DNA of 64,000 nt from Planctomycetota bacterium (GTDB lineage: Bacteria > Planctomycetota > Phycisphaerae > Phycisphaerales > Phycisphaeraceae). The notes beneath the pieces were generated by a model. That model had not been told where the DNA came from. It saw nothing but the letters and a program-made list of their open reading frames with translations, and did not search any database. Each line of letters begins with the position of its first letter. Position 1 is the first letter of the stretch. The stretch is taken from positions 2,542,001 through 2,606,000 of the forward strand of contig CP066225.1 in assembly GCA_016350165.1 (NCBI GenBank). The letters run 5' to 3'. The position numbers and the translations under genes were made by a program. Positions 24,206 to 27,937 of this stretch are shown here, in pieces.

Positions 24206-24234
24206 GATAGTCGAACTATCTAATGATTAGTTCG
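24206..24234. repeat. 29-bp repeat, copy B, overlapping the thrS stop
   Basis: This block matches copy A at 27 of 29 positions. On the minus strand the motif is CTAATC-ATT-AGATAG and its TAA is the thrS stop codon. Confidence 0.6.
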
Positions 24235-26356
24235 ACGCTTTGACTAATGGTGCAATCGCTTTGGTCTTGATCTCATCCATCAGTGTCGCGATGAACTCGT
24301 CCTTAGGCACCGCACCGAGATCACCCTCACTACGATGGCGAACACTCACAGTGCCAGCTTCCTTATCCTTACCGCCAACAACCAGCATGTAAGGGATCTT
24401 CTCTTCCTGGGCGACCTTGATCTTACCATTCAAACGATCATTACCCTTGTCAATCGTCACACGCACGCCTTCAGCAAACAGTTTGTCCTTAATCTCTTCA
24501 GCATAGTCAACAAACTTATCACTAATCGGCAACACGCGAACTTGCTCAGGCGACAACCACAACGGGAACGAACCATTAAAGTGTTCAATCAGCACGCCAA
24601 CAAAGCGTTCCATCGAACCAAACGGTGCGCGGTGGATCATCACAGGTACATGCTCAGCGTTGTCACTACCAACGTAAGACAACTCAAATCGTTGTGGCAA
24701 CTGATAATCAACCTGCACAGTACCCAACTGCCATTCGCGGCCAATCACATCCTTCACCACAAAGTCAATCTTAGGACCATAGAACGCAGCTTCACCAGCC
24801 TCCGAACTAAACGGAACACCCAAACTTTCAGCCGCCTTCAAACACGCAGCCTCAGCATGATCCCAGTCCTTCGGATCGCCAACATACTTACTGCTATCCG
24901 GGTCACGTAGACCAACACGCACACGGAAATCTTCCATGCCCAGTTTGTCGAAAATGATCTTCACCAGATCCAAACAACCCTGCACCTCTTCATCAAGTTG
25001 TTCAGGCATCACGAACAAGTGAGCATCGTCTTGAGTGAAACCGCGCACGCGGGTCATGCCGTTCAGTTCACCCGACTGTTCCCAGCGATAAACCGTGCCG
25101 AATTCAGCCAAACGGATCGGCAGATCGCGGTATGAACGCTTCTCAGAAGCGAAAATGCGGATGTGGTGCGGGCAGTTCATCGGCTTCAGCAAGTAGCCTT
25201 CGATTTCCCCTTCTTCAGTCATATTCGCGAGTTGCGAACATGAGCAACCTTCATCAGCGAGGTTTTTGATCTGCTCGCGGCTAATGATCGGCGGATACTG
25301 CGAATCCTGGTAGTACGGGAAGTGGCCCGAGGTGCGGTACAGGTCCAATTTGCCAATATGTGGCGTGAAGACCTGGAAATAGCCCTGTTTGGTCAGGTGC
25401 TCAGCGATGAAACGCTGGAGTTCATCACGGATGATGCCGCCCTTTGGTTTCCATAACACGAGTCCTTGACCGACTTTATCGTCGATTGCGAAGAGGCCGA
25501 GTTTTTGGCCGATGACGCGGTGGTCACGAGCTTTGGCTTGTTCCATTTTCTCGAGATAGTTTTCGAGATCTTTTTCTGAGAAGAAGGCGGTGCCGTAAAC
25601 ACGTTGGAAGCGGTCGGACTCGATGTCGCCGTGCCAGTTTGAGCTGGCGATGGACATAACCTTGTAAGCACCTATCAATGAAGTATTTGGAACGTGAGGC
25701 CCCTGGCAGAGGTCTTCCCAGAATTTACCATCAGCGTTCGCTTCTTCGAGCGCACAAGATGAATCGACGGTTGGATCGCCTGTCACATACCATGACAAAG
25801 TTTGCGCGCCGCCTGCGACTGCGCGTTCGGCGTTGTCGAGTTTGTACTTGTTGTCTTCGGCTTTGAGTTTGTCCATGCCTTCGGCGACGGGGAGGTCGTA
25901 ACGCTTGAATGGACGGTTACTTGCGATGATTTTCTTCATCTCGGCTTCGATTTTTGCGAAGTCGTCGGATGAGATTGGGGTGTCGAGTTTGATGTCGTAG
26001 TAGAAGCCGGTTTCGAGTGGGGGGCCGTAGGCGAGTTCTGTGTCTGGCCAAAGGTTTTCGATGGCTTCAGCCATGACGTGTGCGGTTGAGTGACGCAGGA
26101 GATAAAGTGCATCGTCCATGTGCTGCGAGTCACGGAACTTGGAGTTACCCTTTTTGTCCTGACGCGGTGCGGTGACGATGGAGATATCGCAATCTTCTGT
26201 GATTGGGGCAGTTACGTCGACGAGGGTTCCGTTGACGCGAGCGCCGATGGAGGCTTTTGCGAGACCTTCGCCGATGGATGCAGCGACGTCGTATGGTGTT
26301 GAGCCTGAAGGCAGCTCAACGGAGTTGCCGTCGGGGAGGGTAATTTTGACGTTCAT
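24227..26356 (-). CDS. thrS: Threonyl-tRNA synthetase
   Basis: A 709-residue class II synthetase that charges tRNA-Thr. In order: a TGS domain (about 1-62, VELPSGSTPYDVAASIGEG); the editing domain with its HxxxH (LRHSTAHVMAEAI); motif 2 region YRWEQSGELNGMTRVRGFTQDDAHLF; MNCPHHIRIF with the zinc-binding cysteine; motif 3 HRAPFGSMERFVGVLIEH; and an anticodon-binding domain. It is longer than the 642-residue E. coli enzyme, partly through an insertion around SREQIKNLADEGCSCSQLANM just before MNCPHH. The ATG at 26356 has GGAG nine bases upstream. Codon choice shifts within the gene: C-ending in the N-terminal half, G/T-ending in the C-terminal half. The leader upstream is described separately. 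Confidence 0.97.
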   Translation of the reverse strand: MNVKITLPDGNSVELPSGSTPYDVAASIGEGLAKASIGARVNGTLVDVTAPITEDCDISIVTAPRQDKKGNSKFRDSQHMDDALYLLRHSTAHVMAEAIENLWPDTELAYGPPLETGFYYDIKLDTPISSDDFAKIEAEMKKIIASNRPFKRYDLPVAEGMDKLKAEDNKYKLDNAERAVAGGAQTLSWYVTGDPTVDSSCALEEANADGKFWEDLCQGPHVPNTSLIGAYKVMSIASSNWHGDIESDRFQRVYGTAFFSEKDLENYLEKMEQAKARDHRVIGQKLGLFAIDDKVGQGLVLWKPKGGIIRDELQRFIAEHLTKQGYFQVFTPHIGKLDLYRTSGHFPYYQDSQYPPIISREQIKNLADEGCSCSQLANMTEEGEIEGYLLKPMNCPHHIRIFASEKRSYRDLPIRLAEFGTVYRWEQSGELNGMTRVRGFTQDDAHLFVMPEQLDEEVQGCLDLVKIIFDKLGMEDFRVRVGLRDPDSSKYVGDPKDWDHAEAACLKAAESLGVPFSSEAGEAAFYGPKIDFVVKDVIGREWQLGTVQVDYQLPQRFELSYVGSDNAEHVPVMIHRAPFGSMERFVGVLIEHFNGSFPLWLSPEQVRVLPISDKFVDYAEEIKDKLFAEGVRVTIDKGNDRLNGKIKVAQEEKIPYMLVVGGKDKEAGTVSVRHRSEGDLGAVPKDEFIATLMDEIKTKAIAPLVKASN

Positions 26357-26389
26357 GATTACGTTCTCCGTGTGTTGAAACAGCGTCAA

Positions 26390-26440
26390 TTTTGTGCGCA
26401 CAAGTTGGAGGCGTGTTTGCGCGTGCTTAGGCGCACAAAA
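26390..26440 (-). promoter_or_regulatory. Inverted repeat next to the thrS ribosome-binding site
   Basis: On the minus strand TTTTGTGCGC and GCGCACAAAA are perfect 10-base complements, separated by 31 bases. The structure ends about 34 bases before the thrS start. E. coli thrS is repressed by its own protein binding tRNA-like hairpins just upstream of the ribosome-binding site; whether this hairpin does the same is inference. Confidence 0.4.
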
Positions 26441-26901
26441 GTGACGTTTTAGCCCATTATTGTAGGGTTTTGGGCTTTAAGTGTTTGGATTTCAAGATTT
26501 TAACGCAAAGTTCGCGTTTTCGCCCATTATGGGCTGGTTTTGGTCTGAAACAGGCGGGTTTCGATGGGGTTTGGTGAGGTTTTGAGCAGTTTTGATAAGG
26601 AATCGAGCGGTTTTGAAATTTCGTGTGCGCTTTTGTGTTGATGAGCGTTGTTGATCGTGTGCGCGTTTCTGAGCGATTGTGGTGCAAAATGGTGGGGGTA
26701 AGTTGTTGTGGGATTGAGGGTTGCGAAGTTTGCGATGATGAAAAGTGAGGTGCTGCGGGGTTTGGGGGGTGTGTGATTTTGGGGTGTTGTGAGTGCGACG
26801 ATGGGTGGTGAGTGTCTACTGTTGGCACAGTCGGTGTGGGGGTGAGGCTTCCGCGACCCGTAGGTCCGCGGCTACTTGAGTTGGGGATGAGTTATCAAAA
26901 G
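26441..26901. other. Non-coding part of the thrS upstream region
   Basis: A gap between the attenuator-like terminator and the thrS hairpin. It contains an imperfect direct repeat, GTTTTMGCCCATTAT followed by a GGGTTTTGG/GGCTGGTTTTGG-type sequence (about 26446-26475 and 26517-26545), and one copy of the dispersed hairpin repeat at 26841-26890. A 123-codon open frame on the minus strand here has biased composition and no ribosome-binding site, so I do not call it. A promoter nearer thrS could exist but is not evident. Confidence 0.4.
26841..26890 (-). repeat. Dispersed hairpin repeat, copy 1
   Basis: On the minus strand: CTCAAGTAGCCGCGGACC, a short TAC loop, then GGGTCGCGG, an imperfect 9-bp stem, then AAGCCTCACCCCC. 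Related copies are at 28015-28070 (degenerate) and 47180-47232 (opposite orientation). Confidence 0.6.
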
Positions 26902-26903
26902 CA

Positions 26904-26933
26904 AAACGCCTCGCTGTGGTGGGCGAGGCGTTT
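26904..26933 (-). terminator. Attenuator terminator between the threonine leader and thrS
   Basis: AAACGCCTCGC and GCGAGGCGTTT form a perfect 11-bp stem with an 8-base loop; on the minus strand the sequence continues TGCTTTTG. The only minus-strand open frame just upstream is the 24-codon threonine leader. A segment inside that leader (26978-26972, GCGAGGC) matches the 3' arm and can pair with the 5' arm, giving a competing antiterminator. Confidence 0.75.
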
Positions 26934-26965
26934 GGGATTTCTGAGAGTTTGAATCAATCAGTGGA

Positions 26966-27040
26966 TCACTGGCCTCGCACCGTGGTTGTGGTGGTGGTAG
27001 TTGTTGTGGTCGTGGTTGTCGTTTCACGCGTAGTGATCAT
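26966..27040 (-). CDS. Threonine-rich leader peptide upstream of thrS
   Basis: A 24-codon open frame: MITTRE, then 14 consecutive threonines, then VRGQ and TGA. Sixteen of 24 residues are Thr, using all four Thr codons, so this is not a simple nucleotide repeat. TAAGG lies nine bases before the ATG. The codons GTG CGA GGC after the Thr run contain GCGAGGC, which can pair with the 5' arm of the terminator 30-odd bases on. Stalling on Thr codons would leave this segment free to block the terminator; reaching the stop would cover it. This is the design of the thr and his operon leaders of enterobacteria. The terminator-to-thrS distance (about 546 bases) is unusually long. Confidence 0.72.
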   Translation of the reverse strand: MITTRETTTTTTTTTTTTTTVRGQ

Positions 27041-27175
27041 GATTGGTTGCCTTATCTATATATAAAGGTATCGGTTTGTGGGGTGGGGTGCAAATAGGGG
27101 TGATGGTACAAAAGTCATTTTGTTGTAGTATTGCTAGCAGTAAGTCTTAGATCGCATATAAATCCGGAGAGCATG

Positions 27176-27937
27176 ATGCCTACATATGCAAAAACTACGC
27201 GTGAACTGATGTATGAGTATATTGAGGTCAAAGGTATTCAGAAGGGCGATGTTATTCTACGCAGCGATATTGTTGCTTGGTTTAATACAAATTATCCAAA
27301 GACTAAGCCGGGCACGATTACTGGGCATCTTACGAGGATGACAACAAATGCACCTTCACGTTTGCATCATAGTCTGATGAATGGTGATTCCCTGTTCTAT
27401 CAAATTGATAAAGGTCGTTATGTTCTATATGAAGCCTCTGTTCATCCTGAGCCAATTACACCAGAGAACGAAAAGAATGCGCAGGAGTTGGAAGAGGAAA
27501 AGATTGTAGAACGAGAGGAACAGCGACATTCAGAGTTTGCATACGAGAGGGATTTACAAAGTTTTTTAGCAAAGAATTTGAGCGTGATTGAGCCGGGCTT
27601 AATTCTTTATGAAGATGAGGGGATTAATGGTATTGAATATGATGCGGGTGGACGAAGGATAGATATATTGGCGGTTGATCGAGACAATCATTTGGTTGTT
27701 ATCGAGTTGAAAGTGTCGCGTGGTTATGATCGTGTAATTGGGCAGCTTCTTCGTTATGTGAACTGGGTTAAAAAGAACGTTGCTGAAGCAGGGCAGAACG
27801 TAAGAGGTGTGATAATATCTCGAGAGATATCGAATGATTTACTCATAGCTTGTGAAGAATTAAATCATATATCTCTTTATGAATACGAGATGTCGGTTCG
27901 ATTGAAATGCGTTAACCATGAGCTAGCTACTGTGTAG
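27176..27937 (+). CDS. NucS-like PD-(D/E)XK nuclease with N-terminal winged helix
   Basis: A 253-residue protein. The N-terminal 90 residues (TTRELMYEYIEVKGIQKGDVILRSDIVAWF...GTITGHLTRMT...YQIDKGRYVLYE) look like a winged-helix module. After a charged linker (about 100-125) comes the NucS/DUF91-type nuclease: ERDLQSFLAKNLSVIEPGL, GGRRIDILAVDRDNHLVVIELK (catalytic Asp and E-x-K), and QLLRYVNWVKKNV with the family's QxxRY. NucS nucleases cut mismatched or branched DNA; this N-terminal domain differs from archaeal and actinobacterial NucS. No methylase or other defence gene adjoins. GGAG six bases before the ATG at 27176 sets the start; 27173 is possible. Confidence 0.82.
   Translation: MPTYAKTTRELMYEYIEVKGIQKGDVILRSDIVAWFNTNYPKTKPGTITGHLTRMTTNAPSRLHHSLMNGDSLFYQIDKGRYVLYEASVHPEPITPENEKNAQELEEEKIVEREEQRHSEFAYERDLQSFLAKNLSVIEPGLILYEDEGINGIEYDAGGRRIDILAVDRDNHLVVIELKVSRGYDRVIGQLLRYVNWVKKNVAEAGQNVRGVIISREISNDLLIACEELNHISLYEYEMSVRLKCVNHELATV

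Follow-up and report, generated by a model that had tools for sequence, protein, structure and literature searches.

What does a 24-codon reading frame with 14 consecutive threonine codons do upstream of thrS, the gene for threonine--tRNA ligase, in a marine planctomycete? Within the window (the whole 64,000-nucleotide stretch analyzed here), the frame stands among the elements below, given in the order in which the minus strand reads, and as judged from their sequence and from folding models the thrS leader is very probably a ribosome-mediated transcription attenuator tuned to threonyl-tRNA supply.

27088 to 27093, minus strand: putative −35-like hexamer TTGCAC, 17 nt ahead of the −10-like hexamer, in a long block conserved with the same-genus genome G001
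27065 to 27070, minus strand: putative −10-like hexamer TACCTT, 24 nt ahead of the leader ATG
27050 to 27054, minus strand: Shine-Dalgarno-like TAAGG, 9 nt ahead of the leader ATG
26966 to 27040, minus strand: thrS leader peptide ORF of 24 codons, MITTRE-T14-VRGQ (MITTRETTTTTTTTTTTTTTVRGQ, then stop), read from the sequence
26981 to 27022, minus strand: 14 consecutive Thr codons, the proposed sensing codons, read from the sequence
26972 to 26978, minus strand: candidate antiterminator 5′ segment GCGAGGC, in the ORF after the Thr run, complementary to the terminator 5′ arm
26959 to 26971, minus strand: hairpin CAGTG-ATC-CACTG containing the stop codon, predicted by folding to nest within the antiterminator loop
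26904 to 26933, minus strand: predicted intrinsic terminator, 11 perfect pairs and an 8-nt loop, then the tail TGCTTTTGA
26357 to 26903, minus strand: spacer of 547 nt from terminator to thrS, weakly conserved with G001 and of similar length there
24227 to 26356, minus strand: thrS, threonine--tRNA ligase, the downstream gene (TIGR00418, 629 bits vs. a cut-off of 384)

The leader ORF runs from the ATG at 27040 to a TGA ending at 26966, and includes 16 Thr codons in its entire length (ACC 6, ACG 4, ACA 4, ACT 2). Its GCGAGGC segment has a second copy at 26908–26914, which is the terminator 3′ arm, and a complement, GCCTCGC, at 26923–26929, which is the 5′ arm. A preliminary description of this DNA had pointed to the ORF with its TAAGG, to the Thr run (27022–26981) with all four Thr codons, to the identity of GCGAGGC with part of the terminator 3′ arm and its complementarity to the 5′ arm, to the stop codon inside its small hairpin and to the 11-bp perfect stem; on re-reading the minus strand each was found exactly as described, the U-tract of the terminator tail (TGCTTTTGA) being interrupted. 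The long gap between terminator and thrS, put there at roughly 546 nt, is also present, with an exact length of 547 nt. This spacer is partly C-rich and carries two similar ATAATGGGC motifs.

The leader-terminator arrangement is not due to chance. A search for eight successive ACN codons on both strands of the whole 5.23-Mb genome (a single contig of 5,234,020 bp) returned seven matches, all of them overlapping registers of the one leader run, which is the sole run of at least eight Thr codons in the genome. Among 1,059 ATG-started ORFs of 10–35 aa in the window (nested starts counted separately), 40 had at least six of one residue per 12 codons and 5 had a perfect-stem terminator no more than 90 nt away, while a single ORF, the thrS leader, combined the two.

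The sole same-genus genome in our searches (G001, 4,291,168 bp) has a Thr-rich leader at the same place. When the 800 nt before thrS were aligned, the best-kept parts by eye were a promoter-like block (CTATTTGCACCC...ACAAACCGATACCTT), much of the leader, CGAGGC, the stop region CACTGATTGATT and the terminator 5′ arm; the spacer was poorly kept. The stop hairpin is retained in G001, again by eye and with one bulge, as is CGAGGC against GCCTCG, and one terminator pair is changed on both sides between the two genomes (C-G vs. A-T).

How far beyond the genus the element extends was assessed by seeking thrS in 41 relatives and in 300 genomes of the order, 297 of the class, 148 of the phylum and 35 of family f15 (overlapping sets). 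A thrS match was found in 296 of the 300 order genomes, and 121 order loci were picked by us among the matches listed (later f3 places and split-match f2 places being left out). An ATG-started ORF with at least six Thr in 12 codons occurred within 400 nt in 38 of these 121 upstream regions; the same scan yielded 5 for Arg and 2 each for Ala, Ser and Pro, no Thr-rich ORF on the reverse strand, and 0, 0 and 1 Thr-rich ORFs in three shuffles. Widening it to 800 nt, three start codons and at least five Thr in 12 codons raised the number to 50 of 121, with a terminator beyond the leader in 48 (by family, f1 15/32, f2 27/48, f3 1/31, f4 1/1, f5 3/4 and f6 1/5).

With 45 class loci added among the matches listed (44 from other families, one from f1), leader plus strict terminator was found in 55 of 166 regions, a count made without a tree over species that are not independent. 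Of the families reached through the class search, f11 had the pair in 5 of 14 loci and f15 in 2 of 11; it was absent from f9 (nine loci), f23 (four), f13 (two) and f14, f21, f24 and f25 (one each), and five leaders of f15 and f25 fell short on the terminator rule alone. The 111 regions lacking the pair are mostly true absences at this threshold, some of the upstreams being shortened by contig ends (L116 to 25 nt, L206 to 68 nt, L122 to 219 nt). Absence can occur within a genus, since one genome (G083, locus L118) has no Thr leader before thrS and two of its congeners (G008, G127) have one. Outside the class, 20 thrS upstreams sampled elsewhere in the phylum contained no leader with terminator and one weak Thr ORF (L286; the gene start is an estimate there and in L285). 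The trait is thus patchy across the class, and we infer, using no tree, that repeated loss is the simpler account, because the same-genus genome and many other genera carry the leader.

Where present, the element is built to a nearly constant measure: 54 of the 55 terminators begin 25–45 nt past the leader stop and the remaining one 59 nt past it, and the distance from leader stop to thrS match is 84–246 nt in 53 of 55, the two congeners standing apart with 606 and 610 nt. The long gap of the window is unlike that of the other relatives; of the 55 leader loci, G001 alone shares a similar length. It counts against the proposed function. The preliminary description had looked to Phycisphaerae for a conserved Thr run with covarying terminator and antiterminator; run and terminator do recur, in the 55 of 166 regions, and antiterminator covariation was not evident beyond the genus of the window. 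It had also named relatives with an intact thrS and no leader as evidence against the element, and such relatives are many, alongside the same-genus genome and the many genera that do have a leader. A wider contig search, reaching mostly distant taxa, gave five Thr-rich ORFs among 75 upstreams scanned of the 80 matches listed. One of these five resembles the element (L037, with Thr leader MSQPTTTTTPTSRRG and a terminator-like hairpin before thrS); its contig is labelled Cyanobacteria, possibly wrongly, and its thrS is 56% identical to that of the window.

Among the synthetase genes scanned, the signal appears specific to thrS. Upstreams of pheS (10 loci) and hisS (10 loci, three of them with hisS matches below the family cut-off) in leader-bearing genomes had no Phe-rich or His-rich leader, and nine leuS upstreams included one Leu-rich GTG-started ORF (L332, in G008), in scans that covered pheS, leuS and hisS and that shorter or differently built leaders could escape. 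The L332 ORF (5 Leu in 12 codons) resembles part of a membrane protein.

The start signals differ between the window genus and other relatives. In 25 of the 55 loci with leader and terminator, a TANNNT box (at least four of six consensus matches) ends 5–9 nt ahead of the leader start, vs. 24 boxes altogether at the remaining ~115 of 120 scanned positions. Such a spacing fits a leaderless mRNA, and it suggests that leader mRNAs may be leaderless in many relatives. Boxes of this kind, which often read TATACT, precede the leaders of L017, L018, L020, L145, L151, L162 and L174, among others. The window genome, by contrast, has TACCTT 24 nt before the ATG together with TAAGG, and G001 has AGGA before its ATG; a sigma-70 consensus scan of 26300–27250 reported no promoter, which counts against the attenuator, as does the interrupted U-tract. 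A CCGAT motif upstream of leaders was mildly enriched and is not counted as evidence. A divergent gene at 27131–27937 on the plus strand, NucS endonuclease-like at a score below the family cut-off, adjoins the putative leader promoter.

We next turn to whether the leader RNA could switch between two folds. In the window, the terminator segment is more stable than its shuffles (z = −5.0), as is the segment left free in the stalled state (z = −3.7), which without the terminator 3′ arm is predicted to fold as an antiterminator, with GG.GCGAGGC paired to GCCTCGC.CC and the stop hairpin nested inside. This nesting suggests a role for the hairpin, which would shorten the antiterminator loop and which a ribosome arriving at the stop codon would melt. 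The full-length fold prefers the terminator, so that antitermination would have to be kinetic, as it is in classical attenuators. The minimum-energy fold of the entire leader also contains a long helix from start to stop; this was dropped because the G001 sequence, by eye, does not have it.

For the set of 55 loci, the ribosome was modelled with its front 15 nt beyond the start of either the stop codon or the earliest clustered Thr codon. Upstream pairing of the terminator 5′ arm had a mean probability of 0.75 with the ribosome at the first Thr codons vs. 0.32 at the stop, a mean difference of 0.43 compared to 0.09 for shuffled linkers, and the native linker ranked in the top 6 of 60 shuffles at 33 of 55 loci and in the top 3 at 24. 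The window locus (0.65 vs. 0.01, rank 0 of 60) and G001 (0.55 vs. 0.06, rank 2 of 60) are clear cases; the effect is absent or reversed in L117, L137, L156, L200, L239 and L248. An earlier duplex test sought the antiterminator after the last Thr of the peptide, a starting point that misses CGAGGC in G001; its median z was −1.25, and against 200 shuffles 17 of 48 loci reached the best 10. When linkers were instead paired with the arms of other loci, the mean rank of the own arm over the 55 loci was 0.466 (chance 0.5). The own arm came first of all at 2 loci and within the best tenth at 8, with no general own-arm advantage, while it was favored in the window (0.04) and in G001 (0.02). This swap test is a weak one because terminator arms resemble one another. 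The models therefore support a predicted switch that is clear for the window genome and its congener and holds on average across the set against shuffles; a matching of antiterminator to arm at each locus was not borne out across the 55 loci by this weak test.

Three features would be expected of such an attenuator: a short ORF with clustered cognate codons, an intrinsic terminator between leader and gene, and an antiterminator that a ribosome at the stop codon can block. The window has 14 Thr codons before thrS, a predicted terminator at 26904–26933 and a predicted antiterminator of this kind, for which the wider set gives a positive answer in the switch test and a negative one in the swap test. 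The proposed sequence of events is as follows. RNA polymerase would transcribe the leader with a ribosome following on the 24-codon ORF. When charged Thr-tRNA is plentiful, this ribosome would reach the stop, melt the stop hairpin and cover GCGAGGC, leaving the terminator 5′ arm free, so that the 11-bp terminator could form and transcription would end near 26900. When charged Thr-tRNA is scarce, whether from low threonine or from low synthetase, the ribosome would stall in the Thr run; GCGAGGC would then capture the terminator 5′ arm, enclosing the stop hairpin in the antiterminator loop, and with no terminator able to form the polymerase would read through to thrS. As all four Thr codons occur, more than one isoacceptor could be sensed. 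We infer from this arrangement that the leader is both transcribed and translated, with a functional terminator behind it and Thr-tRNA charging as the signal sensed.

A second way of building the element is suggested by families f15 and f25. The majority of leader-bearing families would have an antiterminator close to the leader stop that competes with a terminator beyond it, on a leader mRNA that often appears leaderless. Among 26 f15 loci from 35 genomes, 13 have a leader whose start region forms 14–24 pairs with the final 34 nt ahead of the T-run, which places the whole leader inside the predicted terminator; the other 13 have no leader, no T-run or no such pairing. The best Thr count per 12 codons in the 13 enclosed leaders is 3 to 8, and the f25 locus L249 resembles them. 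Enclosed leaders include L297/L243, L292, L300, L302, L304, L308 and others in f15, and L249 in f25. They are short (9–12 codons, e.g., MNTTTTTTTTC followed by the stop). These 14 f15/f25 loci include two very similar ones from a single genus (L292 and L301). Own pairing was superior to every swap in 8 of the 14 and to all but one in 10; among 200 shuffles, it was reached by 0–3 in nine loci and by 6, 12, 21, 60 and 84 in the other five. Here the 5′ end of the leader itself, as far as the start codon or past it, would serve as the terminator 5′ arm and pair with a 3′ arm adjoining the U-run; stalling at the first Thr codons would place the ribosome on the terminator and block it by occupancy, with no antiterminator involved, and a terminator once formed would also hide the start codon. 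The evidence for this enclosed-leader architecture in f15 is suggestive, and we lean towards the wider view that Phycisphaerae have a thrS attenuator specific to their clade, in which one Thr leader is built into two or more architectures, including an antiterminator-free enclosed type in f15 and f25.

Could the same observations be explained in another way? One rival accepts a translated Thr leader but places control mainly at the translation of that leader or at Rho-type termination; the hairpin would then be no more than a constitutive attenuating terminator. It draws on the swap test, which gave no locus-specific antiterminator over the set, and on the loci without a predicted switch. We consider it unlikely, however, given that the terminator lies at an almost constant distance from the leader stop, that the folding switch falls in the top 6 of 60 shuffles at 33 of 55 loci, and that CGAGGC and GCCTCG are kept in the window and in G001.

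Control of thrS by a T-box, or by ThrRS binding its own leader as in E. coli, would have precedent, as these are the known bacterial thrS controls. Neither model accounts for the Thr-codon run, and a search of 26000–27600 against Rfam at E up to 1 gave a sole match, to mir-153 and below its gathering score, while ten loci matched no family at gathering score except a tRNA in L245. The lack of a T-box match in either search argues that there is no T-box, and we judge both forms of control very improbable here. Autoregulation by the E. coli enzyme is mentioned in the accessible text of one survey (PMC2965389). As for a low-complexity ACN repeat arisen by chance within a short ORF before the terminator of an unrelated transcript, the low complexity of the run and the long gap to thrS would suit it; yet the run is unique in the genome, mixes Thr codons rather than repeating one unit, and has counterparts upstream of thrS in many genera that follow a start codon in frame and lie solely on the sense strand (400 nt tested), which makes coincidence scarcely credible. 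Ribosome-mediated attenuation of thrS, the central proposal of the preliminary description, is the reading supported by the anatomy of the window, the recurrence in the class (55/166) and the behavior of the switch against shuffles.

As far as our searches show, leader-peptide attenuation of thrS is new for Planctomycetota: a literature search, made largely without subscription papers and in part on best matches only, found no planctomycete thrS leader. The element would extend this mode of control to the phylum and provide a synthetase gene with a clear sensor made of Thr codons. Since transcription attenuation works only if a ribosome follows RNA polymerase closely, it would imply coupled transcription and translation in planctomycetes, whose cell plan has long been argued to separate the two, so that the question of coupling becomes testable at a single locus. 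Two architectures within one class would furthermore make it possible to compare, in a natural setting, different wirings of one sensor to a terminator.

Among known systems, the E. coli thr operon leader (thrL; Rfam RF00506, Thr_leader) is similar in pairing a Thr-rich leader peptide with a mutually exclusive antiterminator and terminator; it differs in controlling biosynthesis genes, rather than thrS, through mixed Thr/Ile codons. Thr_leader is listed among Rfam families in the accessible text of PMC3766115. This model (RF00506) had no match at E up to 1 in 26000–27600, nor at gathering score in the ten loci. The E. coli pheST attenuator likewise places an aminoacyl-tRNA synthetase operon under leader-peptide attenuation (PMC1262725, in its accessible text). 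Its leader is pheM, and it differs in its Phe codons and in belonging to gammaproteobacteria. Synthetase or paralogous genes also lie behind cognate-codon leaders in the Streptomyces leuS and trpS attenuators and the Bacillus hisS/hisZ leaders, which involve other amino acids and other phyla than the window's (PMC1262725 and PMC2965389, accessible text). In the same portions of these surveys, the one from 2005 reports no conserved structure upstream of threonine operons in Actinobacteria (PMC1262725), and the one from 2010 has leader peptides shown until then only in Proteobacteria and Actinobacteria and adds a His leader in bacilli (PMC2965389). Another such system is thrL of Streptomyces lividans, a short ORF on a leaderless transcript before thrS and a proposed attenuator (PMC8079986, accessible text); the earlier suggestion that no poly-Thr thrS leader was described in a planctomycete agrees with our searches, and is qualified by the thrS leader peptide already proposed in that species. 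According to the accessible text of the same paper, S. lividans thrL has two Thr codons only and termination was not clear to its authors, whereas the planctomycete leader has 14 Thr codons in a row and a strong predicted terminator.
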